This document shows, piece after piece, positions 2,123 through 24,921 of a DNA stretch of 32,623 bases (the stretch's first letter is position 1; every line of letters begins with the position of its first letter). A model generated the notes under the pieces. The model saw nothing but the letters and a program-made list of their open reading frames with translations, did no database searches and was not told the DNA's origin. The position numbers and the translations under genes were made by a program. Source of the stretch: Pseudolactococcus hodotermopsidis (GTDB lineage Bacteria; Bacillota; Bacilli; Lactobacillales; Streptococcaceae); NCBI RefSeq assembly GCF_011170085.1, contig NZ_BLLI01000017.1, forward strand, positions 1-32,623, given 5' to 3'.

Positions 2123-2123
2123 G

Positions 2124-2828: not shown

Positions 2829-3721
2829 GATTTCCACCAGCCTTCTCTATCATTTTCCTTAAGATAGTTAATATAACTAATCAAATCAACAGGTATTTCT
2901 AATTTTCTTTCCTGTCCAGAAATTGAGAGCATTCTTTCCAGTACTTCAGGATTATCTGCATTTAAAACAATTCCAGATATTTTGTTATATTTCATAATAT
3001 TTTGAAACGTTTCAAAATTATAACTTATCAAAAATTCTTCTAAAAACTTTTTAAGTCGGACATCTTCAAATAATTTTGTTCGCAGAATAGGATCTGCTCT
3101 ATATAAAAGATTTATTAGTGAAAAAATCTCATTATACAGTTCCGATTGATAATAAATTTTTATATTTCTTGGAAGTCTTTCAAAAAATAAATCGCTAATA
3201 AAGCTTTCATCTTTTAAAATCAAATAATCAAAATCAACAATATCTTTTGTATTAGAAATCATATCAATTACTTCAGATTCTGATACTAATACCCCAATTT
3301 GTAATATTTTATTTTTTGATTTCAAATCAACAATATCTCTTAAGATACTGTTCATTAATTCAGCCTCTTCACATGAATATTCAAGGTAAGCTGATGTAAT
3401 TGTTTTTTGTTTAAGATGTTCTAAAAGTCCATCAATTTCAATGGGAAATAAAGAATTTATTGCATAGTGAATACCAATTTTATTCTTAATATAATCAACA
3501 GTTTTACCACCAATCCCAACATTAATCTTAGCAATACTAATCATTTTAAAAAAGCGACTCTCAACATAATAATTGTAATCAATATCATCGTTAGAGAAGA
3601 TAAAGTCCACCACATTATTATCTATTGCATACTCAACCATTTTTGAATAATCTTTCCAAGTAAGCGGAGATGTTGCCATACTTTTAACATTAATAATTGT
3701 CTTTACTGTCCTATCAGTCAT
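2825..3721 (-). CDS. Unknown protein, possible degenerate aldo/keto-reductase-like TIM barrel
   Basis: 298 residues, soluble, no signal peptide or membrane segment. I do not recognise it firmly. Alternating short hydrophobic strands and helices suggest a TIM barrel. A middle segment (NKILQIGVLVSESEVIDM) and a C-terminal one (KISGIVLNADNPEVLERML) are reminiscent of the 'IGVSN' strand and the 'GxxxPEQLEENL' end of aldo/keto reductases, but no Asp-Tyr-Lys-His catalytic set is evident. The gene is tightly packed: its first eight bases overlap the end of the upstream polymerase gene, GGAGG lies six bases before the ATG, and its stop overlaps the tarI start. This implies a role tied to CDP-ribitol or polymer synthesis (inference). 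It is AT-rich like the polymerase gene upstream. Confidence 0.7.
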   Translation of the reverse strand: MTDRTVKTIINVKSMATSPLTWKDYSKMVEYAIDNNVVDFIFSNDDIDYNYYVESRFFKMISIAKINVGIGGKTVDYIKNKIGIHYAINSLFPIEIDGLLEHLKQKTITSAYLEYSCEEAELMNSILRDIVDLKSKNKILQIGVLVSESEVIDMISNTKDIVDFDYLILKDESFISDLFFERLPRNIKIYYQSELYNEIFSLINLLYRADPILRTKLFEDVRLKKFLEEFLISYNFETFQNIMKYNKISGIVLNADNPEVLERMLSISGQERKLEIPVDLISYINYLKENDREGWWKS

Positions 3722-6488: not shown

Positions 6489-6541
6489 ATTTTCCACCTT
6501 GTTTCATTAAATTTTTATAGTACATTTTATAACTCTGTTTT

Positions 6542-8020
6542 TCAAATCGGATACCAATGTAAATCAATAAATCCATTAGGATGAGCTGTCAATTTCCAGC
6601 TCCCTTCTTCTTTTATTATTGAAATAAAGTTGACATCTATTTTATCTGAAAAATCATCTCCAGTCATTCTTTTTCTAGTTTCATCAAATTCAAAAATTAA
6701 TTTCCACCAGCCTTTTGGTCCCTTGGGCGCTATCAGATTTAGATAATCTAATTCAAAAATAATTTCAAAATCACTAATAATTTTTGAAAAATAGACTTCG
6801 ATTTCTTGACCCTCTATCACTGTTTGAGAAAATAGATTTATGTTAAGAAATTCATCTTTTGGAATACTCATATTTGGCACAACGATAATTCTAAACTTTT
6901 TTTCAGAAAACTCACATTTTTCTACAACGAAAGAATAAGTAAGATCTAAATCCAAGGAAGGAAAGTATTCGATTTTCCTAAAATAAGTTTCGTTTTCCTT
7001 ATATATATAACTCTGTTTACCTTTTGTAAACACATTTGCCCTTTTCTTTTTTAAATTTTCAATTTCCGAAAAAGATAAACCAAATTGACTACTAAGAATA
7101 ACTTTATTCCGAATATCCTTATCAAATTTTGAAAAATCCAATTCAAATTTAGCATAACTTATGACATTTTTTATCAGTTCCTCATCTACCATGGGTAAAC
7201 TTCTAAATTCATATGAAAAAAATTTATACCACAATTCTTTAAAATAAATATTTTCTGGATTAATAGCAATTTTTTGGTTTAAAAATTCATTGACTTTATG
7301 AGCGTTCTGATGATACATCTCTTTTGACCACTTTTTAGCAGTCAAACCTTGTTCCGCAATAGAAGTACGCCAATAATAGTACTCGTAGTCATTTAAAATA
7401 ATTGTTTTAAGAGAACTTTGAGTCAATAGTTCCATACCAAAAATTCTATCCTCTCCCCAGTGAACTGACTCATTGAAATAAATACAATTATTAGCTATTA
7501 ATTCTCTTTTTATAACTTTAATCCCTGGTGCATTTTCACTATACATCCAGTGTTGAATAATATCACTATCCCTCATTACCAAACTATTACCATGAGCAGA
7601 CCCTCTTGGAACAGATCGACCATCAGGAGAAAAACGCTTCAGATAAGCTAAATCAAAATCTTCCTTTAAGATATGATTGGCTATTTTTTCAAAAGCATAT
7701 TTACCATAATAATCATCACCATCCAAAAAAGTAACATATTCTGAACGAGCAAACGACAGCCCAACATTTCTAGGTTTACTTGGTCCACCAGAATTAGTCA
7801 GCAATGTATAAGCCTTCATATTTTCGTTATCACGCTCATACTCTTTGATAATTTCAAACGTCCCATCAACTGAACAATCATCAATAATTATAACTTCAAA
7901 TTTACTTTTATCAAAAGTCTGATTAACTAACGAATTCAAAGTTTGCTTAATAATCGGCTCTTCATTCTTTTCATCTAACTTATTTAAATTATACGTCGTT
8001 ACGATAACACTTAATAACAT
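6542..8020 (-). CDS. GT2 glycosyltransferase, TarS/TarP-like (polymer decoration)
   Basis: 492 residues. The N-terminal GT-A domain starts LLSVIVTTYN, with IIDDCSVDGT and FLDGDDYY. Between them is NSGGPSKPRNVGL, close to the 'NSGG.s.PRN.G' stretch of the wall teichoic acid GlcNAc transferases TarS and TarP. The C-terminal half is a beta-rich extension without recognised motifs, as expected for the oligomerisation or substrate-binding part of such enzymes. Likely role: adding a hexose or N-acetylhexosamine to polyol-phosphate repeats; the sugar cannot be told. The ATG at 8020 has GGAG six bases upstream and is preferred over the ATG at 8044, which overlaps an upstream gene remnant. A gap of 53 bases separates its stop from the start of the next polymerase gene. 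Confidence 0.8.
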   Translation of the reverse strand: MLLSVIVTTYNLNKLDEKNEEPIIKQTLNSLVNQTFDKSKFEVIIIDDCSVDGTFEIIKEYERDNENMKAYTLLTNSGGPSKPRNVGLSFARSEYVTFLDGDDYYGKYAFEKIANHILKEDFDLAYLKRFSPDGRSVPRGSAHGNSLVMRDSDIIQHWMYSENAPGIKVIKRELIANNCIYFNESVHWGEDRIFGMELLTQSSLKTIILNDYEYYYWRTSIAEQGLTAKKWSKEMYHQNAHKVNEFLNQKIAINPENIYFKELWYKFFSYEFRSLPMVDEELIKNVISYAKFELDFSKFDKDIRNKVILSSQFGLSFSEIENLKKKRANVFTKGKQSYIYKENETYFRKIEYFPSLDLDLTYSFVVEKCEFSEKKFRIIVVPNMSIPKDEFLNINLFSQTVIEGQEIEVYFSKIISDFEIIFELDYLNLIAPKGPKGWWKLIFEFDETRKRMTGDDFSDKIDVNFISIIKEEGSWKLTAHPNGFIDLHWYPI

Positions 8021-8036
8021 TTTTCTCTCCACTCTT

Positions 8037-8189
8037 TCATTCATAAGAAAAGCATTCTATATCAATATAATGTGAAAGAATTTGTAGAACTTTCACTACA
8101 TCTAAATCCTCAATCAAAAACTCCGCATGCACCTGTAAATTAGAATTATTTAAGTCTTCCCATATTACTTTATTTTTAAAGGTAGACTC
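8037..8189 (-). pseudogene. Orphan 3' remnant of an unidentified gene
   Basis: The 265-base gap between two glycosyltransferase genes holds an open stretch of 50 codons ending in a TGA that overlaps a downstream ATG (ATGAATGA). It has no start codon in a sensible place and no ribosome-binding site, yet reads like protein (VIWEDLNNSNLQVHAEFLIE, then LDVVKVLQILSHYIDIECF). Further upstream (8190-8309) shorter protein-like pieces in other frames, such as SDFSKLFEKNKES and EYDKIVSVLYETT, are broken by stops. I read this as the wreck of a gene once coupled to the glycosyltransferase downstream. The family is not recognisable. Confidence 0.4.
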
Positions 8190-8245
8190 CTAAAGTTCTT
8201 TGCACAAGTTATATCAAAAGAGTGGTTTCATATAAAACAGAAACT

Positions 8246-8251
8246 ATTTTA
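8246..8251 (-). promoter_or_regulatory. Possible extended -10 element inside the polymer cluster
   Basis: On the minus strand the sequence TGATAAAAT gives an extended -10 (TG one base before TAAAAT), with a start predicted near 8239. No good -35 is visible. It could drive the distal, AT-rich half of the cluster (GT2, fusion polymerase, unknown gene, tarI, tarJ) separately. Weak evidence in AT-rich DNA. Confidence 0.2.
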
Positions 8252-8309
8252 TCATATTCTACTCTCTTTGTTCTTTTCAAAAAGCTTTGAGAAGTCAGAC
8301 AAGATAATA

Positions 8310-11060
8310 TTACGATTTTCTTTGTAAAACTTTCAATATTTTAACATACCCTCTCCTTAATACATGATGTTTCACTCTACGCTTAGGTAATTCCTTAATT
8401 TCATTATAAACTCGCTCAGAATTTCGTTTGTCTTGATAAACGAAGAATTTATCCACACGGTTGGCATATTTTTCAGACATTTTACTACCGTTTTCGATAT
8501 AAGCAATGATTTTAGCTACTGTCTCATCTTGCTGAGAAAATACCTCACCGAAACCATTATGTTCATAACTAAACAGTTCTTCATCCTGCTCATATTCTGG
8601 TTCAACTGGTTGATAATAAATAACAGGCTTTCTGAGATAAGCAAAATCAAAAACAGCACTTGAAAAATCTGTAATCATGATGGCTGACTTTTCGTAAAGC
8701 TCATTATAGGTCATCTCATTAGCAATAATGTCAACATCATCTGGCACATCAAAATCAGCAACCTGAACTTGCATTTTAGGATGAACCTTAAAATACAGCT
8801 TATAACCATTTTCACGAAGATTATCCAGCAATACTTGATCATTTAAGAAATCATTGATTGACTGAAACAAGTCTGTCTTTTTAAAATCAGGATTGTAGCT
8901 ATCGTCATCATGACTGTACTTATTTCGCCAAGTCGGAACATAAGTTACAATTTTTTCGGGATTATTTTTTAGTAAATCATAGCGCGGAAAACCCGTTAAT
9001 TTAACTTGCTTGTCTGTAAAACCAGCCTCATCGCTAAGAAAAAGTTCAGTTTCTTTTTTAGTTACAGTAAACATCAAGTCAATATCTTTAGCTGTTGCAT
9101 TAAGATAAGAGTTGATGATACCATAATCTTTTGTTATACCATGTTGAAGAAAAACTTGCTGTGTACTAGACAAGGCTTGCGCAATTTTTTTAAATTGATA
9201 GGCTGGAATATTCGTTTTATAATTGACATATTCAAAAAATGTCGTACTTGAAATAACTTTTTCAGCAAACATCAACAAAAACTTGTACTCAAAGCTACCA
9301 TAAACAATTATCCTGCTACTAACACCTTCAAATTGTGGAAAATAGCTAGAATCTGGGATAACCATATATTTTTCAACGCCATCTTTTATGTTTGCACAAT
9401 ATCTAAATAGCGCCTCCGCATTATCACCAATCGCAGTTGGTCGATCAATAAAAAGCCAAATGCGTTTATTTCGATACTGCTCAAAATACTCCATAAAACG
9501 AGCAAATAAATAGCCATCCGCATAATTTCGTTTTTGAGATAACACACTATTTGCAAAAGAACTTCTATCTGAAATTTTCTGGATGTTAAAAGCATTTCCT
9601 AAATGACTTGTCGTAACAAGCGTCTCTTCACCAACATAAAGTCTATTTTTATCGTAAAAACGTGATGTCCAAGCATGAGTCATTTTTTGCGGTGCAACCA
9701 ATTTATTTTTATATTTAAAATAAACTTCAAAGCTATACGTTTTATTCGACTTCAATTTCGGCAAATCAAAGGCAATGACAAAATCCATAGCTGGGAAAAT
9801 TTCTCGTCCTAGAAAAGTTTTTTTGTCATTATGATAACTTTTTTGGACAGTAGCTTTAACCATTTTTTTATCAATTTTAGCAACTAATTCAATGTTATCA
9901 TAGGTTGGTTTTACAAAGAAACCACGTATTATAAATTTCTTGCTATTTTGCTTAATCCATTGAATTTGAATACTACCACCAAGAGTTTCAAAAAAATGTT
10001 CACCAAAGAAAAACTTAGGTTCAATATCGTTTATTACTTTTATAACACCATATTTCATTTCCTTAAAATAGGCTTTAAGCCAATAGGGAATATAGTTTTG
10101 ATCTAGCAAATCGTCATCAATATTTTGAATTAAATATCTTACATCTTCAATTGCAGCATCTATATCTAAGTCAATACCATGTTTTAATGGGTCATTGTTT
10201 GGAGACTTAAACCAATGAATATCATATAAAACACTGCTTTGTACCACTCTTGGAATTGTTTCCTGAGTAAAGAGATAGTCCTCAAACTCTTTCTTATAAT
10301 ATGCAATGCGTGCATATAAGGCTGGATTAGAATCTGCCGTGTCTATCGCGCTTGACTCATCAGCTCTTTTACGGAGATAATAGTATATTCTACCATTATT
10401 TAGCCAACCAGCATGGTTCGTTTTAAGTAAAATTTTGATTAAAAACTGCGCATCCTCAGAGATTTTTAAATTTTCATCAAAACGTTCTCCTTTAATTGCT
10501 GAAGTTCTAAACATAGCTGAATTGACATGTGAGAAGAAAACATGGCTTTCCTCAAGATTGATAATACGCGTTCTACCGCGATTAATCACTTTATATGAAT
10601 AATGAACATCATCATTTTTCTCAAATATTTTGATAGGCAAAAAGACAACATCAGGAGAAACCAAATCTTTCTCATCTGAATATTTGTCATTTTTCAAATC
10701 ATTTAAACGATAATCTTGTTGGTCAAAAAATCTCGTCAATCTCTCAACTTGATATTGATCATACTTGTCATCACCATCAAGAAAACAGAGGTAGGGAGCA
10801 GGTAAGTTTTTTTCACAAAACTCCAGTCCTGCGTTACGAGCCGCAGAAACACCTTTATTTTCTTGATAGATATAATAAATATTGGCATAGTGCTTTTGAT
10901 ATTCTTTGACAACCATTTCTGTATTATCTTCACTACCATCATTTACAATGATTAAATTAATTTCTGAAAAACCCATTGTCTGATTAATAACGCTTTTTAT
11001 CGCATCATCTAAATATCTACCAACATTGTAAGCTGGTATAATACAATTAACCTTTACCAT
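8310..11060 (-). CDS. GT2 glycosyltransferase fused to CDP-glycerol glycerophosphotransferase
   Basis: 916 residues, with the same architecture as the fusion encoded at 3714-6488. The N-terminal GT-A domain has VNCIIPAYN, IVNDGSEDN and CFLDGDD, with NKGVSAARNAGL between the last two. A beta-rich linker lies at about 360-480. The C-terminal glycerophosphotransferase domain has FLQHGITKDYG, YVPTWRNKY, FKVHPKM and ITDFSSAVFDF, followed by a basic tail (RRVKHHVLRR) that could hold it to the membrane. Likely a polymerase of glycerol- or ribitol-phosphate units with an attached sugar transferase. The ATG at 11060 is chosen because AGGGAG lies seven bases before it; the earlier GTG at 11087, inside the upstream gene, has no such site. 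Second copy of a repeated module. Confidence 0.85.
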   Translation of the reverse strand: MVKVNCIIPAYNVGRYLDDAIKSVINQTMGFSEINLIIVNDGSEDNTEMVVKEYQKHYANIYYIYQENKGVSAARNAGLEFCEKNLPAPYLCFLDGDDKYDQYQVERLTRFFDQQDYRLNDLKNDKYSDEKDLVSPDVVFLPIKIFEKNDDVHYSYKVINRGRTRIINLEESHVFFSHVNSAMFRTSAIKGERFDENLKISEDAQFLIKILLKTNHAGWLNNGRIYYYLRKRADESSAIDTADSNPALYARIAYYKKEFEDYLFTQETIPRVVQSSVLYDIHWFKSPNNDPLKHGIDLDIDAAIEDVRYLIQNIDDDLLDQNYIPYWLKAYFKEMKYGVIKVINDIEPKFFFGEHFFETLGGSIQIQWIKQNSKKFIIRGFFVKPTYDNIELVAKIDKKMVKATVQKSYHNDKKTFLGREIFPAMDFVIAFDLPKLKSNKTYSFEVYFKYKNKLVAPQKMTHAWTSRFYDKNRLYVGEETLVTTSHLGNAFNIQKISDRSSFANSVLSQKRNYADGYLFARFMEYFEQYRNKRIWLFIDRPTAIGDNAEALFRYCANIKDGVEKYMVIPDSSYFPQFEGVSSRIIVYGSFEYKFLLMFAEKVISSTTFFEYVNYKTNIPAYQFKKIAQALSSTQQVFLQHGITKDYGIINSYLNATAKDIDLMFTVTKKETELFLSDEAGFTDKQVKLTGFPRYDLLKNNPEKIVTYVPTWRNKYSHDDDSYNPDFKKTDLFQSINDFLNDQVLLDNLRENGYKLYFKVHPKMQVQVADFDVPDDVDIIANEMTYNELYEKSAIMITDFSSAVFDFAYLRKPVIYYQPVEPEYEQDEELFSYEHNGFGEVFSQQDETVAKIIAYIENGSKMSEKYANRVDKFFVYQDKRNSERVYNEIKELPKRRVKHHVLRRGYVKILKVLQRKS

Positions 11061-11083
11061 TTTAGTCTCCCTTAACAGCAATT

Positions 11084-12544
11084 TCACATAACACTTGCAA
11101 ATCTCTGCACCCCAATCTCAAAATACCCCTCAAAAATCACAACAAAACGACTTTTATTATTTTCATATCCTTTGGGCAAATTGACTTCAAAGTCTGTTTC
11201 TGATAATTTTCGATAGGTTAGCTCTTTTCTTGATTCAAAAGGCTGCGCTAAATCAAAAATTTCAAATCCAACAAGTTTTTTATATGAAAATACTTTGAGT
11301 TTTAATGTTCCCTCAATCAAACTTTCAGCTACTGCATAGGCTTCAAGTCTTGTTTTGGTCAATAGTGGCAAAAGTTGTGGATAATAATAAACCTGATTGC
11401 TCACTGTCTTCATGTTCAATTTCCGATTCAAGACCCAACGAACCGAAAAAAGGTAGATAAAGCGATACAAACCCGAAATATCGTTATTTTTCAAATAAAG
11501 CCAAGCTGTTTTCCGAAAATCATTTCTAAAATAAGGACTCGGGTCAAATTTAATATTGCCAAGATATAAATCTAGTTGCGCTTTGAAATCTTGCAAGCGT
11601 GCTTTACTAAACTTGTAACCAATATTTCTCTTAAGACAAAAATCATGAATCAACCACTCAATTCGCCGCGAAAGAAAGCGTTCTTTTGAGGTATCATCTG
11701 GAAATGTTTCGTTGATATAACTCAAAGCTCGCAGCCATGACATCATGAAATTTCGGTTAATTGCTTGACTCAGACTGGTATTATCCGCATCGCGATTGAG
11801 ATAAGTTGTCAATTCCTTACCTTGCGTGATTATCTTGGCAAAACGCATAGCTTCATAGAAAAAGGTCACATCATCTGCAACACGTTGATCAACAAAATGC
11901 AAGTTATGCTTGACAACAAGTGAACGTCGCAACATAATTGATTGCGGTCCTAACCAACCATAAAATTCAGTTGGTAATTCTTGGATTGAGCGATTTTTAA
12001 AGTCACCGTCAACATAATAAGGCTTACTTTTCAATGATAAATGCCCATCAACACTTTGAACAAGACCTGAAACAGCAAAATCATCACCTGATTCATCCAA
12101 TAAATCAGACAAATATTTTAATGCCTTATCATCATACCAGTCATCAGCATCCAATATAACTAAATATTCTCCTCGCGCATTGAGCAAGCCAACATTTCTT
12201 GGACCATGCGCACCACCTGTATTTTCATCTAGCTGATAAAGCTCAATATTCGGATTTTTAGTAAGATAAGGTTTAATAATAGCAATTGAGTTGTCCGTTG
12301 ACTTGTCATCAATAAACATAACCTGAATGTTAGCCATTCCAAGCGTTTGCGCCGTAAGCGAGTCCATCATCTTATTTAGATATGGCGCATTATTGAAATT
12401 CGCAATAATAACTGAAACTTTTGGATTAGGCGTGACAATTTCAGAAGTCGTCAGTTGGAAAGAAGCTACTTTATCTTGCCATGACTTATCAGCTAAATCA
12501 TATTGAAATGCTTGAAATTCTTGCGTTTTAGTCAAGTCTTTCAC
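11084..12544 (-). CDS. GT2 glycosyltransferase, TarS/TarP-like (polymer decoration)
   Basis: 486 residues. A lead of about 40 residues precedes the GT-A domain, which has VSVIIANFNNAPYL, FIDDKSTDNS, NTGGAHGPRNVGL and ILDADDWYDD. The N-x-GG...PRN pattern again matches the TarS/TarP group of wall teichoic acid glycosyltransferases. The C-terminal third is beta-rich with no catalytic motifs. It probably decorates the polymer made by the fusion enzyme encoded next; donor sugar unknown. The start is a GTG at 12544 with AAGGAGG ten bases upstream, slightly long but the best site present. The stop lies 24 bases past the preferred start of the next gene. Parallel to the 6542-8020 gene but clearly diverged. 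Confidence 0.8.
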   Translation of the reverse strand: MKDLTKTQEFQAFQYDLADKSWQDKVASFQLTTSEIVTPNPKVSVIIANFNNAPYLNKMMDSLTAQTLGMANIQVMFIDDKSTDNSIAIIKPYLTKNPNIELYQLDENTGGAHGPRNVGLLNARGEYLVILDADDWYDDKALKYLSDLLDESGDDFAVSGLVQSVDGHLSLKSKPYYVDGDFKNRSIQELPTEFYGWLGPQSIMLRRSLVVKHNLHFVDQRVADDVTFFYEAMRFAKIITQGKELTTYLNRDADNTSLSQAINRNFMMSWLRALSYINETFPDDTSKERFLSRRIEWLIHDFCLKRNIGYKFSKARLQDFKAQLDLYLGNIKFDPSPYFRNDFRKTAWLYLKNNDISGLYRFIYLFSVRWVLNRKLNMKTVSNQVYYYPQLLPLLTKTRLEAYAVAESLIEGTLKLKVFSYKKLVGFEIFDLAQPFESRKELTYRKLSETDFEVNLPKGYENNKSRFVVIFEGYFEIGVQRFASVM

Positions 12545-12579
12545 AACTGTCTTTCCTCCTTTCTTCGGCTTAAAGTCTA

Positions 12580-13689
12580 TTACAACTTATCTAGCATGAT
12601 ATTTTCAATAAGTGTCATAACACGTTGTGTTGATTTACCGTCTCTATACTTGAATACTTTATTATATAATTTTTCTCGCCTTTTGTCATCATCAGAAATA
12701 AATCTGATTTCATCTACTAGTTCTTGATTGTTTTTCGCAATCGCACCTGGAAATTCTTGATCATAATCAAAAAGAACACCAGGATTCGAGGAATACTCGG
12801 TCAAATCAGGAACATAGGCAATAATTGGGCGCTTTGTTACCAAAAATTCATAGATAATCGCAGAATAATCACTAACTAAAATATCAGTTATCGCAAAAAT
12901 TTTCTCAATAAATTCCTCTGACATATAAACAATATTTTGATTATTTTGATATTTGGAATTGGTAATCAATGGATGCGGTTTATAAATAATGGCATACTCA
13001 TTGCCCAATGATTTTTGAATGAAATCTAAGTCAATTTCAATTTCACGAAAGCCAGTCCCAACTCTACCACGAAAAGTTGGCGCATAAGTCACGATTGTTT
13101 TATTTTCTAACTGCGGATACTTTGCATAAAAATAAGATTCATTATCAGAAATACGCTGACCATTAAACAATTTATCTGTTTCTGGAATCCCCGTTATTTT
13201 AACATTTTCTTTTTTAATATTGAAAGCTTGCGCAAACGGGGCAACAAAAAATTCAGAATTAACAATCGTATAATCGTAGTTTTTAATCTGATAATCACGT
13301 GTCACCGTGTTACCAAATTTTTTAATAGCGCCTGAAGCATGCCAAAGTTGGAGAACTTTTACACCATTTTTGCGCTTAAATTTTGAGACAACAAAATTGT
13401 TAAAATCAAGCAAAACCAAGTGAGAGCGGTTAATCGCAAAAAGTTGCTTGATACAGGCAATGACGTAATCAAACTCACTTCTCAAACTCTGTGAGTAATT
13501 AAATAGAATATATTCTAATTCATATGCTCCCGATTTGACCAATTCTTGATTAACAATTTCAAAATCTTTCGTTAATTCGGTACTCTCGAGTGAAATAAAA
13601 GAGATCTTATTTGGATTTACTTTTTGTAAAAGCGAAAAAGGATAGAAAATTGACAAGATAATTGTCAAAATAATATTCTTAATTTTCAT
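12580..13689 (-). CDS. CDP-glycerol glycerophosphotransferase, TagB/TarB-like
   Basis: 369 residues of the PF04464 family. A short hydrophobic segment near the N-terminus (IILTIILSIFYPFSLL) would place it at the membrane. The motif LWHASGAIKKFG, with Ser-Gly where TagF-type polymerases have Gly-Thr-Pro, resembles the TarB primase group, which adds the first glycerol phosphate to the ManNAc-GlcNAc linkage unit. Other motifs are YAPTFRG, YKPHPLI and VSDYSAIIYEF. The primase role is inferred from motif type and from pairing with the TagF-like gene just upstream. The ATG at 13689 overlaps the upstream stop (ATGA) and has GGAGG seven bases before it. No tagA or tagO homologue lies in the window. 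Confidence 0.8.
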   Translation of the reverse strand: MKIKNIILTIILSIFYPFSLLQKVNPNKISFISLESTELTKDFEIVNQELVKSGAYELEYILFNYSQSLRSEFDYVIACIKQLFAINRSHLVLLDFNNFVVSKFKRKNGVKVLQLWHASGAIKKFGNTVTRDYQIKNYDYTIVNSEFFVAPFAQAFNIKKENVKITGIPETDKLFNGQRISDNESYFYAKYPQLENKTIVTYAPTFRGRVGTGFREIEIDLDFIQKSLGNEYAIIYKPHPLITNSKYQNNQNIVYMSEEFIEKIFAITDILVSDYSAIIYEFLVTKRPIIAYVPDLTEYSSNPGVLFDYDQEFPGAIAKNNQELVDEIRFISDDDKRREKLYNKVFKYRDGKSTQRVMTLIENIMLDKL

Positions 13690-14864
13690 CCAAATACCTC
13701 CTTTATCACTCTTTTTGTTGCCATACCATCTTGTAATTGATTAAATTTTTGATTAAATTCTGACAAGCGTTGGTAATCAAACACTCCAGAATTGATTGCC
13801 TCAAGCAAGTCATCTTCCGATTGGCAGATGTCATTTGGCAAGTCTTTAGGGACACTCAAATAGAAACCACGCAAGTCATTTTTGTACGTAGCAAAATCGG
13901 ACATATAAAAATAAATTGGACGATTAAGAATCGCATAGTCAAAGAAAACACTTGAATAATCGGTAATTAAAACATCGCTTATCAGATAAAGGTCACTAAT
14001 TTCGTCATTTGCTGGTAGCTCATAAACAAAGTCCGTCAAATCAGTTGGGACTTGAAATCTACTTGCAATCAAATAGTGAGGTTTGAAAAGAATCACATAC
14101 TCTTGCCCCAAAACTTCCCGCCATTTAGTAAAATCAACCTGCAACTCAAAGGTGTAACCTTTAAGATTGTAAGTATTATCTCGCCAAGTTGGTGCATATA
14201 AAATTACCTTTTTATCTGATGGTAACTGATACTTTGCCTTGATTTGCTTGATCTCTGACTCTGAAGCTGTCACTAACACATCATTACGTGGATAACCCGT
14301 TTCAATGATTTTTTCCCTTGGCAACTGAAAAGCTGACGTGAAAACTTCTGTTGAAAAAGGCGTGGCAGAAATTAAATAATCCCACAATTTACTGTCCTTG
14401 TCGTAAGACTGTGTCATCTCGCGATAGGACTGCTTGCTACGATAATAGGTCAAACCATTATCTGGCAAATCATGCGCCAAACGTTTCAAAGGTGTGCCGT
14501 GCCAAGTTTGCAAATAGATTTGGTCAGATTTTTTAACAAAATATTCTGGCATTTTAGCATTGACTACCCAGTATTTTGCTTTTGATAGGTAATAAAAATA
14601 CTGAATTGAGCCTTTTTTGACACGCTTAGCACCATCAATTTTAGTTTGTTCATTCATACCCCAAACAAATTGATACTCACAAAACCTTAAATCAGCTAGT
14701 AAGCCTTCAAAAATTGCCTTGGGATTATCCAAATAACCTCGACCATCAAAAGCAAGGAAGAAAACAGTCTTATCATTAGTTTTGACAAAAAGATTCATAG
14801 CAGACCAAAAAGAAGGTATCATTATTGCAAATACTTTCTTTCTGATGTAAGCTATGATTTTCAT
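13686..14864 (-). CDS. tagF: CDP-glycerol glycerophosphotransferase, TagF/TarF-like
   Basis: 392 residues, close to the length of single-domain TarF/TarL (about 390) and much shorter than Bacillus TagF. Motifs in order: TWHGTPLKRLAHD near residue 120, ETGYPRND, YAPTWRDN, FKPHYLI, and ITDYSSVFFDYAILNRP. These supply the catalytic histidines and the CDP-binding site. It transfers glycerol phosphate (or ribitol phosphate) from the CDP donor onto the growing chain at the inner membrane face. Whether it adds one unit (TarF) or polymerises (TarL) cannot be read from the sequence. The start lies two bases after the upstream stop; the nearest purine-rich site (GGGGA) is rather far, so coupling is likely. 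Confidence 0.85.
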   Translation of the reverse strand: MKIIAYIRKKVFAIMIPSFWSAMNLFVKTNDKTVFFLAFDGRGYLDNPKAIFEGLLADLRFCEYQFVWGMNEQTKIDGAKRVKKGSIQYFYYLSKAKYWVVNAKMPEYFVKKSDQIYLQTWHGTPLKRLAHDLPDNGLTYYRSKQSYREMTQSYDKDSKLWDYLISATPFSTEVFTSAFQLPREKIIETGYPRNDVLVTASESEIKQIKAKYQLPSDKKVILYAPTWRDNTYNLKGYTFELQVDFTKWREVLGQEYVILFKPHYLIASRFQVPTDLTDFVYELPANDEISDLYLISDVLITDYSSVFFDYAILNRPIYFYMSDFATYKNDLRGFYLSVPKDLPNDICQSEDDLLEAINSGVFDYQRLSEFNQKFNQLQDGMATKRVIKEVFG

Positions 14865-17804: not shown

Positions 17805-18851
17805 TTATTCGATTTCAAATTCAATCTCATCACGACCATGTGGCGCATGCCAGTTTGTCCACACGGTTAATTCAGGACCTTTTGGCAAAATAGCCTGATG
17901 TTCTTCTGTGGGATCGATATGTGTTGATAGAAAATAGTGTTTTTTAATTGCCTCAAAGTCAGTTGTATCGCCAAAACCATAGGTTTGGTACAGGTCACGC
18001 GCATAAGCCCAGAGATTTGGAAAATCAATCAGACGATTCCGATTGCAGTTAAAAGCTGAGTAATAAGCCACATCAAAGCGCGCAAGCGTAGTATAAAGGC
18101 GCACATCTGAATCCGTCAAACGATTGCCATGCAAATAACGGCGCTTGCTCAAACGCTCCTCCAGCCAATCCAAACGCGCAAAAAGTCGGTCATAAGCCTT
18201 TTCATAAGCCTCTTGAGAGCGCGCAAAACCCGCACGATAAACGCCATTATTGACCTCCAAAAAGATAATATCGTTAAGTTCACGAATCTCCTGTTCTAAA
18301 TCTTCTGGTAGCAAATCTGGCGCACCGGCTTTATGATATTTTTTCCACTCTTTTTCAAAATAATAAGTTAAGTTATGATAATCATTTTCCACAACTTTTT
18401 TGGTCGCAATATCAACCAAGGCTGGAACAGTCGGACGTTTACCGTCTTTGATATAGTCTGAGTCAGCATTTTCATAAACTTCACCAACATATCTAATGCC
18501 TAAAACAGGGTCAACATCTCCTTCGTCCAACGTAAACGACCAATCAATATGGTCAAGCGGTGGTCGCAAAGGGTCAGCCGTACCAAGTGAAATCGCCTCT
18601 TCTAGTCCCAAAATCTTACGGACAATCACGCTACGGTGCGCCCACGGACAGACTGGCGCCCAAAGTAAGCGATATTTTCCAGCCGCAACTGCTAGCTTAT
18701 CGGCGCCGTCGCCAAATTCGGCGATAAATTCATTGGTTTGCCGAACAAAGCGACCATTAGCCGCAACCTCAACCGACTTTTGAGTCGTGAAATCTTGAGC
18801 CGTCTGAAAATTGCCGTCTATATCATGAAGTGTCGTTTTATCTGCTGTCAT
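17805..18851 (-). CDS. Glutathionyl-hydroquinone reductase (Xi-class glutathione transferase)
   Basis: 348 residues. The N-terminal thioredoxin-like domain carries the catalytic motif APVCPWAHR with Cys68. KRPTVPALVD follows, then the pair ENDYHN and an all-helical C-terminal domain with RYLHGNRLTDSDVRLYTTLARFD, all typical of the YqjG/ECM4 group. The family removes glutathione from glutathionyl-hydroquinones in the cytoplasm. In a lactococcus, which can import rather than make glutathione, the natural substrate is unclear. The ATG overlaps the end of the amidohydrolase gene (ATGA), so the two are translationally coupled. A strong terminator lies 10 bases after the stop. GC is higher here than in the polymer genes (31 of 60 bases at 18661-18720). 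Confidence 0.88.
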   Translation of the reverse strand: MTADKTTLHDIDGNFQTAQDFTTQKSVEVAANGRFVRQTNEFIAEFGDGADKLAVAAGKYRLLWAPVCPWAHRSVIVRKILGLEEAISLGTADPLRPPLDHIDWSFTLDEGDVDPVLGIRYVGEVYENADSDYIKDGKRPTVPALVDIATKKVVENDYHNLTYYFEKEWKKYHKAGAPDLLPEDLEQEIRELNDIIFLEVNNGVYRAGFARSQEAYEKAYDRLFARLDWLEERLSKRRYLHGNRLTDSDVRLYTTLARFDVAYYSAFNCNRNRLIDFPNLWAYARDLYQTYGFGDTTDFEAIKKHYFLSTHIDPTEEHQAILPKGPELTVWTNWHAPHGRDEIEFEIE

Positions 18852-19996
18852 TTTTGTGCTAACCTTTCTAGTAGTGCGAACGCATTGTTCACATAGTAAT
18901 CAACGGCGACTGGGAGCATCTCGTCCTTGACTGTCATGTCGGAGAAATGGAGACCTGGACTGCCGATAGCGTTGCTACCGATAAAAGCAAAGACACCTGG
19001 TATCTGCTCTTGATAAGTCGCAAAGTCCTCGCCAGCATTGGAGGGTTCTGGCACCATAACATCATCATGCCATTTGCGTGTTTCGTTGAAGAGAAATTCA
19101 GATAATTCTGGGTCATTATAGGTCACATTGGGTCCTAGTATCCAATCAATCTCTGCATGTACACCATAGGCTGAGCTAACATTTTCTACGATGTCATAAA
19201 ATCTTTTCTTGGCAAGTTTCCTGTCGTCCTTATCAAAAGTCCGAATCGTCCCTTCAAAAATCGCCTCATCAGGCAAGACATTCCACGTATTTCCCGCCGT
19301 CATATGTGTCACAGAAACAACGACTGCATGCTGTGGACTGATGTTTCGGGCAACGATTTGTTGCAAACTAGCTATGATCGCAGAAGTTGCCAAAATGCTG
19401 TCAGCGCCCTCTTGCGGATAAGCGGCATGCGAGCCAACACCCTTAATCGTCACATAAAACTGGTCAACTGCTGCCATGATCCCTTTTTCACGAATGCCAA
19501 TCTGTCCAACTGGCAAAGTCGGCATATTATGATAGCCGATAATGGCGGAAACATCAGCAAGAACGCCTGTCGCAAGCACCTCATCAGCACCGATATGACT
19601 TTCCTCAGCATGCTGAAAAATCAGTTTAATCGTGCCATCTATCTCATGTTCACGGCTTTTGAGAATTTTTGCTGCACCAAGCAAACTGGTTTGGTGCAAA
19701 TCATGCCCACAAGCATGCATAACACCTGTGTTTTTTGACGTAAATGGCAGACCAGTATTTTCAACAATCGGCAAGGCATCAATATCTGCACGCAAGGCAA
19801 TCACTGGCTGACCCGAACCAATTTGCGCAACCAAACCAGTTTTTAAGCCAGTCTCCAAAATTTGAATGCCCAAATCTGTCAAATAATCTTTAAGATATTG
19901 CGTTGTTTTAAATTCCTGCCCTGAAAGCTCAGGATTTTCATGTATATAATGGCGAATTTTAATCAATTCATCATAATGTTCAGATGTGATTGTCAT
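18848..19996 (-). CDS. M20 family amidohydrolase/carboxypeptidase
   Basis: 382 residues, a cytoplasmic metallohydrolase of the M20D (hippurate hydrolase, N-acyl-amino-acid amidohydrolase) group. The metal-binding Cys-x-His is in HACGHDLH (residues 94-101), the catalytic Glu pair is at 131-132 (HAEESH), and a conserved His follows in YHNMP. The dimerisation segment contains GVGSHAAYP, and LHFSDM near the C-terminus supplies a last metal ligand. Which acyl-amino acid it cleaves cannot be told; N-acetyl-diaminopimelate deacetylase, indole-acetyl-amino acid hydrolases and peptidase-like relatives share all of these motifs. The ATG overlaps the tagD stop and has AAGGAG at good spacing. Confidence 0.85.
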   Translation of the reverse strand: MTITSEHYDELIKIRHYIHENPELSGQEFKTTQYLKDYLTDLGIQILETGLKTGLVAQIGSGQPVIALRADIDALPIVENTGLPFTSKNTGVMHACGHDLHQTSLLGAAKILKSREHEIDGTIKLIFQHAEESHIGADEVLATGVLADVSAIIGYHNMPTLPVGQIGIREKGIMAAVDQFYVTIKGVGSHAAYPQEGADSILATSAIIASLQQIVARNISPQHAVVVSVTHMTAGNTWNVLPDEAIFEGTIRTFDKDDRKLAKKRFYDIVENVSSAYGVHAEIDWILGPNVTYNDPELSEFLFNETRKWHDDVMVPEPSNAGEDFATYQEQIPGVFAFIGSNAIGSPGLHFSDMTVKDEMLPVAVDYYVNNAFALLERLAQK

Positions 19997-20427
19997 TCTT
20001 GCTCCTTATTTTCTTCTTGGTAATCTCGGGCAATTTCTTCCTTGATTTTCGTTGTTGACGTTACGCCTCGAGGGAAATACATGACTTTCAAATCTGGAAA
20101 TTTTAATTTTAAATTGTCAAATCTGCCACGCCAGTCATCACCCATTGCAAAAATATCAACGCCTAGCATATCAATATAAAGCGCCTTATCTTCCCAAGTT
20201 TGCTCAGGCACAACAAGATCAACATAGCGAATTGCCTCTAATACGAACTTGCGTGTATTGTAGTCTTGGTAGGCTTTTTTTCCTTTTTCGATATTAAAAT
20301 CATCCGTTGACAGCATAACAACTAATTTATCGCCTAAATCTCTTGCATTGCGCAACATCGAGATATGACTTTCGTGAACAATATCAAATGTCCCCGCTAC
20401 CATGACGATTTTTTCTTTATCTCTCAT
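19993..20427 (-). CDS. tagD: Glycerol-3-phosphate cytidylyltransferase TagD/TarD
   Basis: 144 residues. Makes CDP-glycerol from CTP and sn-glycerol 3-phosphate for the glycerophosphotransferases encoded further downstream. The nucleotidyltransferase signature is GTFDIVHESH (12-21), with histidines 18 and 21 in place but Ser20 where the canonical HxGH has Gly. RYVD (67-70), GDDW (96-99) and the C-terminal R120...STTKIK (124-129) complete the active site. The ATG at 20427 is preferred because AAGGTG ends six bases before it; the GTG at 20436 lies inside that site. It follows the PLP-enzyme homologue by 12 bases and overlaps the amidohydrolase gene. Separated from the other polymer genes by two unrelated genes and a terminator. 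Confidence 0.9.
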   Translation of the reverse strand: MRDKEKIVMVAGTFDIVHESHISMLRNARDLGDKLVVMLSTDDFNIEKGKKAYQDYNTRKFVLEAIRYVDLVVPEQTWEDKALYIDMLGVDIFAMGDDWRGRFDNLKLKFPDLKVMYFPRGVTSTTKIKEEIARDYQEENKEQE

Positions 20428-20439
20428 TTTTTTCACCTT

Positions 20440-21336
20440 TTATATTGATTTTTCAAAAGCTTGTGCCAATTCCGCTATCAAATCCGTTTTATTTTCAATG
20501 CCAATCGTGAGTTGAACGAGATTTTCTATCACTTCAGCATGTGCAAACTGTGTCAAATTTGCCAAAAAAATTGCCAAATCATAGTTATCAGCCAACTCAA
20601 AAGAAAGCTGTGCACCAATTCCCGTTGCTTGTGCTTCTTGAATATCTGCCTCATCTCGCGAATAATTCCCTGCGTAATACACGCGCTTGACAGCCTTATG
20701 CGCCTGCAGAAAATCAATCACAACTAACGTACTAACCTCACGTTGATCAAGTCTAGTAGCCAACATTTCAATGCCACCAATCAGCGCATTTTCATCGGCT
20801 TGTGCCAAAGGTTTAGCTGTCTTTTGCATCTGCTCAATTTTTTGAGCCAACACAACATTATCAGTCGCAAGAAAGCTCGCTACAATATCCGAACGACCAC
20901 TCAAATAAGCAATCGCTGAATAAATAACAAAATCTGAACCATATGACAACGTTTTTTGATAATAAGGTGTTAAAAAACTATTATCAACAGCAACCAAAAT
21001 ACCGTGTTTATGTGCTAAATCATTAATACGTTGAATATCTGTCACACGCCAAAAAGGAAAAGACGGCGTTTCAACAAAAATACCTTTTACAGTCGCAAAA
21101 TCATTCTCTGATAATTGATTAAAATCATCAACTAATTGAACCTCAAGTTGCTCCTGCTTCAAATACTCGCTAACTGTTTTATCAGGCTTACGATTAAACA
21201 TAATCTTATCGCCAGTTTTAAACAAGCTAATAAAGCTAAGCGTTGCTGCTTGACTAGCTGAAAAAGCATAAACAACCGCAGCGCCCTCAACTTTTGCTAA
21301 TAATTTTTCCAATTTTCCTGTTCGCTGTTTTATCAT
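20440..21336 (-). CDS. Truncated, catalytically defective Cys/Met-metabolism PLP enzyme homologue
   Basis: 298 residues against about 380 for cystathionine gamma-synthase/lyase. It begins at the position of the family's 'NPT...LE' element, so about 60 N-terminal residues are absent. Asp118-Asn119 (pyridine contact) survives in VAVDNSFLTPYY. The Schiff-base lysine motif (family S-x-T-K-Y-x-x-G-H-S-D) reads SAIAYLSGRSD, with Ala143 replacing Lys. The phosphate-binding S-G-M becomes SASQ (26-29), and the substrate-carboxylate Arg of LVRLSVGIE becomes Gln (LVQLTIGIE). PLP chemistry is therefore very unlikely. The frame is intact and shares an operon with tagD, so a non-catalytic role is possible. 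No ribosome-binding site; TATAAT lies six bases before the ATG. Confidence 0.82.
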   Translation of the reverse strand: MIKQRTGKLEKLLAKVEGAAVVYAFSASQAATLSFISLFKTGDKIMFNRKPDKTVSEYLKQEQLEVQLVDDFNQLSENDFATVKGIFVETPSFPFWRVTDIQRINDLAHKHGILVAVDNSFLTPYYQKTLSYGSDFVIYSAIAYLSGRSDIVASFLATDNVVLAQKIEQMQKTAKPLAQADENALIGGIEMLATRLDQREVSTLVVIDFLQAHKAVKRVYYAGNYSRDEADIQEAQATGIGAQLSFELADNYDLAIFLANLTQFAHAEVIENLVQLTIGIENKTDLIAELAQAFEKSI

Positions 21337-21342
21337 ATTTTT

Positions 21343-21384
21343 ATTATAAAACAGTAAAGTAAAAACAGGCTTACCATTATTATA
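21343..21384 (-). promoter_or_regulatory. Two candidate -10 boxes for the PLP-homologue/tagD operon
   Basis: A proximal TATAAT (21348-21343) has a predicted start at 21336, exactly the ATG, so the mRNA would be leaderless. A distal TGATATAAT (hexamer 21384-21379) is an extended -10 like that of tagH and would give a leader of about 36 bases that still lacks a ribosome-binding site. Neither has a convincing -35. Confidence 0.5.
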
Positions 21385-21398
21385 TCACGGATTTTAGC

Positions 21399-22400
21399 TT
21401 ATTTTATACCAGAAAGTTTAATCAAGGTTATATCTAGCAAAAACTTTTTATCAGCTTGACCAGATTTGATTTTAAAATCTGTGTCAATCAACTGATTAAG
21501 CGCCTGAGATAAAAATTCTTGACTCATTTTCCGAGCAGGTGCAAGCAAAAATTTCAGGCGAAAAGGATTGATTTTCAAAAACTCGATTATCTGCTTATCC
21601 GCATAATTTTTGTTCAGTAAAATTTTGATTTGGTAATATAAACGAAAATTATTGGTTAAAATCGCAAGTAATTTTATCTCATCCTCACCTTGCAACACCA
21701 AGTCGGAAACAAGCGCACGCGCCGTAGCAAGCTTTCCCTTTAAAATTAAATCAGTTAAATCAAAAATGTTATCAGACAAAGATTTTGGGACAGCTGCAAT
21801 CACATCATTTGGTGTGATGTCACGACCATTAGCATAAGTTTTGACCAAGTCAATATTTTGCTTGACAATCGCAAAATTAGCATTCGATTTCTCGATAATC
21901 AGATTAACAATATTGGGTTGTAAACCTGAATTGGCAACAAAATATTTTGTCAATTCTTGCGGTTTCAACTCACTTGCCTCTAGTTCAACAGCAACTTTGC
22001 GAAGTTTCTTGACAATTCGACGTTTGCCATCCAATTTGCCATGAAAGACGAAAATTGCTTTGGTTGAGTCTAAGGGATTATCCAGATAATCTTCTAAACG
22101 GGTCAGCTGTTTGTCATTGAAAACCGATTTTTTCGTTGTTGTCAAATCCCAAAGATTTTCAAAAACGACTAGCATTTCATCGCCAAAAAAGGGCAGACTT
22201 TCCAATTCTTCCAAGGCAAGATCGCCGTCAGATTCGCTCAAGTCAAAATATGCCTGTGATAAATCAGACGAGTCAAAATTCACTTTGTTCAATAACTGCG
22301 ATTTTAATTCTGAAATAATAGCCTTATTTTCTCCGAAAATAATTGTAAACTGAGGTAAATTTTCGGCTGAAATGCGAGATAAATTGTCAAATACTGTCAT
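21399..22400 (-). CDS. holA: DNA polymerase III subunit delta
   Basis: 333 residues, the usual HolA length. Clamp-loader subunit that opens the beta ring. Recognised from an N-terminal FTIIFGENK segment, the RRIVKKLRK region preceded by FVFHGKLDG, and a C-terminal helical collar ending FKIKSGQADKKFLLDITLIKL. As is normal for delta, there is no functional Walker A. The start is taken at 22400, second of two adjacent ATGs, because GGAG lies six bases upstream. It overlaps the end of ftsK by 14 bases, so the two are coupled. It ends 63 bases before the PLP-homologue start. Confidence 0.88.
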   Translation of the reverse strand: MTVFDNLSRISAENLPQFTIIFGENKAIISELKSQLLNKVNFDSSDLSQAYFDLSESDGDLALEELESLPFFGDEMLVVFENLWDLTTTKKSVFNDKQLTRLEDYLDNPLDSTKAIFVFHGKLDGKRRIVKKLRKVAVELEASELKPQELTKYFVANSGLQPNIVNLIIEKSNANFAIVKQNIDLVKTYANGRDITPNDVIAAVPKSLSDNIFDLTDLILKGKLATARALVSDLVLQGEDEIKLLAILTNNFRLYYQIKILLNKNYADKQIIEFLKINPFRLKFLLAPARKMSQEFLSQALNQLIDTDFKIKSGQADKKFLLDITLIKLSGIK

Positions 22401-24921
22401 CATTTTCTCCATTTTCAAGCTCGGCTAACTGATTAAAATCGGTCACTTCAGTATCTGCTGAGGTCATCAAAACCTGTCGCGGTTTTGTGCCAACAGCTGG
22501 TCCGATAACGCCCGCTTCCTCAAGTTCTTCCATGATGCGAGTTGCTCGATTAAAGCCTGTTTTCAGGCGCCGTTGTAACATTGAAGCAGAGGCTTTCTGA
22601 GTTTCAACGACAAGCTGTTTAGCCTCAACAAAGAGCGGGTCACCAGACGCTTTAGCACCACCCTCATTATCAAAAGGACGACCGCCATCTTCAGCAGTTT
22701 CACCAGGGTCAAATGTTTCATCATAGTCAGCACTAGCTTGATTTTTGATAAAGGCGACCACACTTGCCACATCATCATCCGACAGGAAAGCGCCTTGCAA
22801 GCGCAAGGCATGATTTTCATCAATCGGCTTAAAGAGCATATCACCACGACCAAGCAGTTTTTCAGCGCCAATGCTGTCAATAATCGTCCGCGAATCTGTC
22901 CCAGATGAGACAGCAAAAGCGACACGACTTGGGACATTGGCTTTAATCAAACCACTGATGACATCAACAGATGGCCGTTGCGTTGCTAAAATCATGTGAA
23001 TGCCCGCTGCACGTGCTTTTTGCCCAATACGAATAATCGCATCCTCAACTTCTTTTGAAGCAACCATCATCAGGTCAGAAAGTTCATCAACAACGACAAC
23101 AATCAAGGGCAACGTCTGTTCTTTTTCCTCGTTCAAGGCATTAAAGGCTTCGATTTTAGCATTATACCCCTCAATATTTCGTGAACCCGCACGACGAAAT
23201 AGCTCATAACGATTCTCCATCTCATCAACAACTTTTTGGAGTGCTCGCGCCGCCTTACGCGGATTGGTCACAACTGGAATCAACAGATGTGGAATATCGT
23301 TGTAAACATCTAACTCAACCATTTTTGGATCAATCATGAGAAGTTTGACTTGACTTGGCAAGGCTTTCATCAAGATACTTGTGATAATGCCATTAACTGC
23401 AACAGACTTCCCTGAACCAGTTGATCCCGCAACAAGCAAATGCGGCATTTTAGTCAAGTCAAAACTCTTAATTGAGCCATCAACTGCCTTACCAAGTGGC
23501 ACTTCTAGCAAGTTTTCTGAGTTTGTTTTAGCTTTTTCCCACATTTCACGGAATCCGACCATTGCAACTTCATTGTTCGGAATTTCGATACCAACAACCG
23601 ATTTACCTGGAATTGGTGCTTCGATTCGGACATCTTTGGCGGCAAGTGCCAACGCTAAATCATCGGTCAAATTGAGAATACGGCTGACTTTGACACCTGT
23701 GGCTGGCTTGACTTCATATTTTGAAACGGATGGTCCGACGACAGCTGACTCAACTGTGGCTTGAATACCGAAACTTTTGAATGTTTCTTCCAGAATCTTG
23801 ATATTTGTTTGCACATTTTTATGTTCGTTCGCTTGATTTTTGAGTGGTGTCGGTGCAAGTAAGTCTGCTGTTGGCAAGTTATAGTGTGAAAATTCATGAC
23901 TTGGTTCAAAGTAAATCGGCTGACCATCATCGGCAGTTTGCGTTTCATCAAGTCGTTCAGATTCAATTTCGGGAGATAAAATTTCTCCTGTTTCGGAATC
24001 AACAATTGGGATAAAGTTTTCTGGTGTCTTGAAAGGCAAAACATCAAACGGTATCCCCTCACCAGACAGCGCATCTTGAATCAAAACCTCGTCAAGTAAA
24101 TCCTCATGTGGCAAAGTTTCGGCAGGTTGCAGGGCACAAAGATCGCCTTCTTCTAATGTCGGCAGTTTGCGTTTAGACTGGAGTGCCGACACATTCAATT
24201 CTTCAGTTGCTTTAGTTTCGATAATTTTCTGTGCACGCTGAACTTTTTCAAGTCTTTTCAACTTTTTAGCTTCTCTCTTAGCCTCTTTCTTGGTGTTTTT
24301 TTCAATTTTTTTCGCTTCACGTATCATTTTACGATCTGATGAATACTCATCAAAACTGTCTTTTAATTCAACAAATGAATCGTGCCAATAGCTAGGAGAA
24401 ATGAAATAAGTACCTAAAAAGATAAGAATCGCTGCCACAGTAAAAACACCGATTGGCGAAATCAGGAATTTCAAAGGAGCATACAGCAAATGCCCAAACA
24501 TACCTGCGCCAACAAACTCAGTTACCCTAAGTTTTGTCAATTCTTTTAACAAAATTTTCCAAGTGTGTTCCGTTCCTGTCAATTTATCAAAATAAGTTTG
24601 ATAAATTAGCATAGCCGCCAAAAAGAAAAAAATAAAACTTTTCACATACTTTTGAAGGCTGACTAATAATTCTTTTTTGAAAGCTGACACAATCAGAAAA
24701 AGAGCAACAATAAAAAGCACTAGATAGGCAAGACTACCGACAAGAATACGAATAACATTATAGAAAAAAACACCAACTGCGCCCATTTTGGCAAGAACCA
24801 AAAGGTAAAATAAAGGCACAAAGATAAAGGCAAGAACTTTGAATGTTGCCTGACGTTGAACTTCTGATTTTTTAGGGATTTTTCGATTATTTTTTGTTTT
24901 TTTAGTCGTCTTTTTAGTCAT
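22387..24921 (-). CDS. ftsK: DNA translocase FtsK/SpoIIIE
   Basis: 844 residues. Four hydrophobic spans lie in the first 200 residues after a basic MTKKTTKKTK start, followed by a Lys/Glu-rich coiled linker. The motor domain follows: Walker A GSTGSGKS, LLMIDPKMVELDVYNDIPHL, Walker B VVVVDELSDLMM and ILATQRPSVDVI. The C-terminal gamma winged helix (GFNRATRIMEELEEAGVIG) reads the KOPS-type orienting sequences. It pumps chromosome ends through the closing septum. The start at 24921 is the first ATG after the -10; the longer frame to 24987 would run through the promoter and the divergent gene. The predicted mRNA leader is only four bases (AGUU) and holds no ribosome-binding site. Confidence 0.93.
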   Translation of the reverse strand: MTKKTTKKTKNNRKIPKKSEVQRQATFKVLAFIFVPLFYLLVLAKMGAVGVFFYNVIRILVGSLAYLVLFIVALFLIVSAFKKELLVSLQKYVKSFIFFFLAAMLIYQTYFDKLTGTEHTWKILLKELTKLRVTEFVGAGMFGHLLYAPLKFLISPIGVFTVAAILIFLGTYFISPSYWHDSFVELKDSFDEYSSDRKMIREAKKIEKNTKKEAKREAKKLKRLEKVQRAQKIIETKATEELNVSALQSKRKLPTLEEGDLCALQPAETLPHEDLLDEVLIQDALSGEGIPFDVLPFKTPENFIPIVDSETGEILSPEIESERLDETQTADDGQPIYFEPSHEFSHYNLPTADLLAPTPLKNQANEHKNVQTNIKILEETFKSFGIQATVESAVVGPSVSKYEVKPATGVKVSRILNLTDDLALALAAKDVRIEAPIPGKSVVGIEIPNNEVAMVGFREMWEKAKTNSENLLEVPLGKAVDGSIKSFDLTKMPHLLVAGSTGSGKSVAVNGIITSILMKALPSQVKLLMIDPKMVELDVYNDIPHLLIPVVTNPRKAARALQKVVDEMENRYELFRRAGSRNIEGYNAKIEAFNALNEEKEQTLPLIVVVVDELSDLMMVASKEVEDAIIRIGQKARAAGIHMILATQRPSVDVISGLIKANVPSRVAFAVSSGTDSRTIIDSIGAEKLLGRGDMLFKPIDENHALRLQGAFLSDDDVASVVAFIKNQASADYDETFDPGETAEDGGRPFDNEGGAKASGDPLFVEAKQLVVETQKASASMLQRRLKTGFNRATRIMEELEEAGVIGPAVGTKPRQVLMTSADTEVTDFNQLAELENGENDDSI

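Follow-up and report, generated by a model that had tools for sequence, protein, structure and literature searches.

One PLP-enzyme homologue without the PLP lysine is SPTLC1/LCB1, which we take to be a fold-type I protein. LCB1 (SPTLC1) is a subunit of serine palmitoyltransferase, and the available part of the source describes it as a homologue of PLP enzymes that does not have the PLP lysine (PMC3794620). For the cystathionine gamma-lyases, the part of the L. plantarum study available reports a CBS/CGL gene cluster in that species, as well as an engineered CGL variant, K194A, that was inactive and was crystallised with the substrate bound to PLP (PMC7483736). Our searches of open-licence papers turned up no report of an inactive cystathionine gamma family member; in the available part of PMC6522883, the one 'pseudoenzyme' mentioned is a reference to plant PDX1.2.

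The window analysed here is the whole 32,623-nucleotide stretch of Pseudolactococcus hodotermopsidis DNA (contig NZ_BLLI01000017.1, positions 1 to 32,623). Its minus strand carries an open reading frame of 298 codons at 20440-21336, with an ATG start and zero internal stops, and the plus strand over the same interval is riddled with stops. The frame scores 182.9 bits with PF01053 (cut-off 27, E = 8.8e-54) along positions 56-325 of the 381 in the profile, a match far above chance that amounts to fold-wide sequence homology, and its PDB matches are cystathionine gamma-synthases and -lyases (best E = 5e-43). The original prediction of an open 298-codon frame of this family is therefore sound, with the minus strand, which it left unstated, now added. 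On the basis of Pfam, alignment and tree, we annotate the frame as a former cystathionine gamma-lyase/synthase-type gene (P0001) whose catalytic residues have been lost. The neighbours lie on the same strand, with tagD, a glycerol-3-phosphate cytidylyltransferase gene, directly downstream (19993-20436; 196.4 bits against a cut-off of 165.4), followed by an M20-type amidohydrolase gene that overlaps the tagD end (18848-19996), and with holA, encoding the DNA polymerase III delta subunit, on the upstream side (21399-22418). The amidohydrolase gene flanks one side of the locus and holA the opposite side in 12/12 genus genomes.

With respect to distribution, the gene was found in three of the 12 genomes sampled from the genus (presence called at E <= 1e-45): this one, G002 and G011. 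The G002 and G011 copies (395 and 389 residues) are full length, carry the Lys, the SLGG segment and the carboxylate Arg, and sit between holA and the same amidohydrolase gene as the window gene does. The remaining 9/12 genomes do not have the gene at the locus, their holA-amidohydrolase gap consisting of other sequence (G005, G008) or of ~30-220 bases. In the wider family, a match at E <= 1e-44 was seen in 5 of 335 genomes, a rare and patchy occurrence. As a separate observation, the gap in G005 and G008 (L084:1559-2881 and L085:1358-2491) holds a gene for a 261-residue protein, presumably endonuclease-like, beside a repeat array that reads as a repetitive frame, and the gap seems to take up foreign genes within the genus. 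Scans of viral contigs for further family members returned none, a scan of genome contigs returned a single distant homologue (L037), and all 1159 matching plasmid records were below 60% identity (29.5-31.9% among the best 15 of the 1159).

We built a tree from 31 proteins: the window protein, the paralogue from the same genome, and 29 relatives for which loci had been returned, a subset of all matches. In it the window protein joins those of G002 and G011 (support 100/95) on a branch of 1.14, compared with 0.17 and 0.086 for its sisters (about 7-13 times longer), a placement that the tree program flagged as unsure. It is 56/55% identical to the two orthologues, which are 79% identical to each other. 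Because the locus, the start arrangement and the clade support agree, the window gene is, as judged from these comparisons, an orthologue of the full-length cystathionine gamma-lyase/synthase-type gene in two sister species, and acquisition of a divergent paralogue is ruled out by locus, start structure and tree. The Schiff-base Lys is kept in 30/30 other family members of the tree, with no second inactive copy among them, and the dead form is known from this one genome only. The inactive form is thus not conserved in the orthologues, both of which are full length and carry the Lys. The original prediction had held that such close relatives would reveal this copy as only a recent casualty; the relatives are indeed of that kind, but the identity values and the branch length contradict a recent casualty as a simple reading.

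The best NCBIfam model of the intact G011 and G002 orthologues is the bifunctional cystathionine gamma-lyase/homocysteine desulfhydrase, with 397.8 and 387.3 bits against a cut-off of 594, and both fall short of all the NCBIfam cut-offs shown. The best NCBIfam score of the window protein is 177.6 bits against the same cut-off; since the intact orthologues also fall below it, we no longer read this failure as pointing to lost function. A cysteine synthase/cystathionine beta-synthase-like gene stands next to the orthologue in G016 and G018. Because of this neighbour and the best NCBIfam model, reverse transsulfuration appears to be the likeliest role of the intact gene, short of being settled. 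The genome also encodes a full-length family paralogue (G000:C21), 30% identical to the window protein, and a cysK-type gene (C31), and the two may have made the lost enzyme dispensable.

The losses in the window protein fall on the catalytic apparatus. The codon GCT at 20908-20910 (minus strand) encodes Ala143 at the position aligned with the family Schiff-base Lys (SAIAY against the family SATKY), and the codon at 20512-20514 (minus strand) encodes Gln275 in place of the substrate-carboxylate Arg (LVQLTIG against LLRLAVG); the phosphate loop has changed from SSGMAA to SASQAA. Alignment also places three larger in-frame deletions on the minus strand. One of 156 nt removes the N-terminal stretch behind the retained start (junction 21314/21315 in the DNA alignment, uncertain by some bases), one of 12 nt removes the region of the PLP-stacking Tyr, IYGGTY (junction 21192/21193), and one of 87 nt removes the SLGG active-site segment (junction 20543/20544); the C-terminal part is short of 29 residues. 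These alignments bear out what had been proposed for the Lys-to-Ala change, the altered phosphate loop and the Arg-to-Gln change, and also for the missing N-terminal stretch.

We compared a set of 12 PLP and substrate-carboxylate contact residues. The corresponding residues are named for the L. plantarum CGL structure in the available part of its report (PMC7483736), their numbers being mapped onto G011 by motif. In the window protein, 6/12 contacts are substituted, 4/12 deleted and 2/12 kept, the two kept being Asp175 (PLP N1) and Ser197 (phosphate) in G011 numbering. Those gone are both partner-subunit phosphate contacts, the phosphate loop, the stacking Tyr, the O3 Asn, Thr199, the SLGG Ser and the substrate Arg. 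Outside the contacts, five intact homologues agree at 135 positions; of these, 80 are kept, 25 substituted and 30 deleted. Loss of 10/12 contacts thus stands against retention of 80/135 other invariant positions (Fisher P = 0.006). The combination of lost catalytic residues and retained family positions is that of a pseudoenzyme. With the N-terminal arm, stacking Tyr, Lys, phosphate loop, SLGG segment and Arg gone, the ancestral reaction is not to be expected, and it is nearly certain that the original catalysis has been lost. A single-sequence AlphaFold2 model of the window protein was uninformative (pLDDT 37.9).

The frame itself is not broken in the manner of a pseudogene: there is no stop, and the five internal gaps that the window gene shows in the DNA alignment with G011 and G002 (156, 12, 3, 3 and 87 nt) are all multiples of three, for which the chance would be about (1/3)^5 if lengths were random. 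The same gap lengths rule out hidden compensating frameshifts. Besides these five private gaps, there is a 15-nt gap common to the window gene and G011, as well as a shorter tail in the window gene.

The start region is shared with the intact genes. TATAAT lies six bases ahead of the ATG at 21343-21348 (minus strand), an arrangement common to the window gene and the G002 and G011 orthologues. There is no Shine-Dalgarno sequence ahead of the window ATG or of the two intact orthologues. The window gene has no recognisable -35 box, and a consensus promoter scan called no promoter at its TATAAT. Since TATAAT lies six bases before the ATG and a Shine-Dalgarno sequence is missing in all three genomes, transcription of the window gene is apparently leaderless. 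The region 21349-21398 (minus strand) is the former place of an intrinsic terminator that precedes the gene in G002 and G011, and folding finds no stable stem here, with z = -0.08 (21345-21401 folded) compared with -3.76 in G002 and -5.13 in G011. The intact orthologues (loci L086 and L087) are likewise apparently leaderless and stand shortly behind this strong intrinsic terminator, the T-run of which falls about where a -35 box would be.

In codon models the omega of the window branch was 0.171 with three taxa (background 0.068) and 0.124 with five taxa (background 0.058), below 1 in both settings (P = 1.4e-4 and 4.7e-6, respectively), though the fits put 3-4.5 neutral substitutions per codon on the branches, which leaves synonymous sites near-saturated, and there are only three close taxa. 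Compared with background, omega is only weakly raised (P = 0.045 for three taxa and 0.13 for five), and the neighbours on the same branch have omega values of 0.054 (holA) and 0.089 (amidohydrolase). Since averaging along the branch could mask neutral drift late in its history, uniform and partial relaxation were compared with two background classes. The partial model, which relaxes about half of the sites, fits better than neutral drift at all sites of an open frame (2dlnL = 6.32), and 0/76 parametric null replicates generated under the uniform model reach this value; with two background classes, the uniform neutral phase itself gains only 1.0 lnL over a model of no change on the branch.

Far from the contacts, invariant positions have taken conservative replacements (mean BLOSUM62 of 0.48 vs -0.52 for neutral change, n = 21, P = 0.005), and near-contact replacements at invariant positions (n = 10) show no difference from neutral (P = 0.25). 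At positions where G011 and G002 agree, the far changes average 0.25 (n = 71), similar to the value of 0.21 that separates these two intact enzymes (n = 62), and some of the conservative replacements may be older than the loss. When the neighbourhood was defined blindly, we observed no significant excess of change near contacts, either at invariant positions (10/22 vs 21/91, P = 0.06) or where G011 and G002 agree (13/29 vs 71/200, P = 0.41). A stronger near-contact excess (21/38 vs 63/191, P = 0.016) was discounted, as its motif segments had been chosen with the alignment in view. As far as these comparisons reach, with a single lineage and synonymous sites close to saturation, uniform neutral drift explains poorly how well the reading frame, the TATAAT-ATG start and many non-catalytic positions have been preserved.

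Our preferred reading, put forward tentatively and as close to an even call, is that the gene would encode a translated, PLP-free and partly constrained product of a former lyase gene, that is, a single-lineage pseudoenzyme. The lineage has lost the active-site elements listed above together with the N-terminal arm, and the protein would still be made from its leaderless start, keeping part of the PLP fold without the cofactor. It may persist as a non-catalytic protein, perhaps a binding partner, and the translating frame may also bring ribosomes to the tagD start. The retained pseudoenzyme of the original prediction thus survives in part: catalysis is lost, the frame is kept and the partial-constraint model is preferred, but the inactive form is not found in the orthologues. 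Whether a cystathionine gamma-lyase-type enzyme could have turned into a cofactor-free structural or regulatory protein within one species or young clade, by stepwise in-frame removal of the active site with the leaderless start kept, is a more doubtful proposition, which we regard as possible and on the unlikely side.

The pseudoenzyme reading competes most closely with that of a functionless relic, in which the lyase became dispensable, selection was relaxed stepwise, and the frame stayed open partly by luck with no present role. We consider this possible, if less probable than a retained product. It would fit a gene that is the sole inactive copy among the 31 family proteins examined, that is rare and patchy and absent from the locus in most of the genus, that sits behind an eroded terminator on a long branch with a weak rise in omega, and that has a full-length paralogue elsewhere in the genome. 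A one-class model permits a short phase of 0.16 substitutions per codon, with 0.05 almost as likely, for which the probability of seeing no stop is 0.19 and 0.58, respectively. Such phases predict 13 and 4 changed invariant positions, yet 31/113 aligned invariant positions have changed, which corresponds to ~0.42 neutral substitutions per codon and a probability of no stop of ~0.02. The uniform model with two background classes likewise gives a neutral drift of ~0.49 substitutions per codon and a probability of ~0.012. The in-frame indels, the preference for partial constraint and the conservative far changes also speak against a relic. The earlier argument that a decaying gene would be expected to show stops therefore stands at the observed level of loss and with five of five indels in frame, but weakens to a probability of 0.19 or more if the neutral phase was shorter.

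A third explanation, which we regard as improbable, is that the amino acid sequence is irrelevant and that an open frame is needed to feed the tagD start or to stabilise the transcript. Between the stop codon of the frame and the two possible tagD starts there are 3 to 12 bases, and the tagD Shine-Dalgarno-like stretch comes right after the stop; because of this arrangement translation of the frame could feed the tagD start. The frame and tagD also share a strand, the start arrangement is kept, and tagD and the amidohydrolase gene overlap. Against this, the Shine-Dalgarno-like stretch is tagD's own, and a requirement for sense codons alone, with omega of 1 in the last phase, is precisely the null model whose replicates all fell short of the observed statistic; the conservative changes far from the contacts are a further point against it. 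Nor did the rho model reach its cut-off of 509.45 bits anywhere in this genome, which is 97% complete (best score 42.8; we take the weak hits to be ATP synthase subunits), so Rho polarity is ruled out as the reason for the open frame.

The proximity of tagD had also led to the suggestion that the pseudoenzyme is linked to CDP-glycerol supply, which the comparison of genomes does not support. tagD lies upstream of the gene in G011, downstream of it here, and on a different contig in G002, the genome of which is 70% complete, and G001, G004 and G005 have tagD without the lyase-type gene; no tagD match was found at E <= 1e-20 in the other six genus genomes. The gene is beside tagD in two of the three genomes that have it, on opposite sides, and the linkage is therefore not a conserved one. 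On this evidence, the connection with CDP-glycerol looks like chance. The lower half of the window is occupied by a teichoic-acid-type cluster, into which tagD fits. In this cluster (1097-14864), a gene for an IspD-family cytidylyltransferase adjoins an alcohol dehydrogenase gene, a pair we presume to be TarI/TarJ-like, suggesting CDP-ribitol. At least four proteins of the cluster, out of eight scanned, have a CDP-glycerol glycerophosphotransferase domain, fused in two of them to a GT2 domain, and a 298-residue protein encoded at 2825-3721, with few-base overlaps with both neighbours, has no Pfam match at E <= 0.001. Possibly, both polyol-phosphate supplies are brought together in one locus by this cluster and tagD further up.

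The originally proposed binding of PLP or an amino acid, with the protein serving as a sensor, is very improbable: the kept Asp175 and Ser197, and the substrate-bound PLP in the inactive Lys-to-Ala CGL crystal described in the available part of PMC7483736, would agree with it, but 10/12 contacts are gone, from those of the partner subunit to the substrate Arg.

If such a stepwise conversion into a cofactor-free protein did take place, the gene would capture pseudoenzyme birth midway, and the full-length enzymes of the sister species would serve for comparison. Pseudoenzymes are usually found once their function is fixed, and a single-lineage case with intact sisters at the same locus would make the route from enzyme to non-enzyme testable. 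The case would also bear on how far function may be read from the open frame of a solitary bacterial relic, and it illustrates that an intact frame matching a family well can be annotated as an enzyme that the protein cannot be.

Compared with the cystathionine gamma-lyases (L. plantarum CGL; MccB/YrhB-type), the window protein is homologous over profile positions 56-325, and the pairing of the orthologue with its neighbour in G016 and G018 resembles the L. plantarum CBS/CGL cluster as described in the available part of PMC7483736. In contrast to these enzymes, the window protein is without the Lys, the stacking Tyr, the phosphate loop, the SLGG segment, the Arg and the N-terminal arm, and it has 298 residues compared with 389-395 in the intact orthologues. 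With SPTLC1/LCB1 it shares the status of a PLP-enzyme homologue without the PLP lysine (PMC3794620, in the part available). LCB1 pairs with a related active subunit, whereas the family paralogue here is only 30% identical, and the inactive form is not common to the orthologues examined. L. plantarum CGL K194A has the same Lys-to-Ala change at the corresponding position and is inactive according to the available part of its report (PMC7483736); that protein carries an engineered single change, whereas the window protein is also missing nearly all contact residues. Lysine-less homologues of PLP enzymes are already known, and the present one is a private case that is useful through its intact sister genes.
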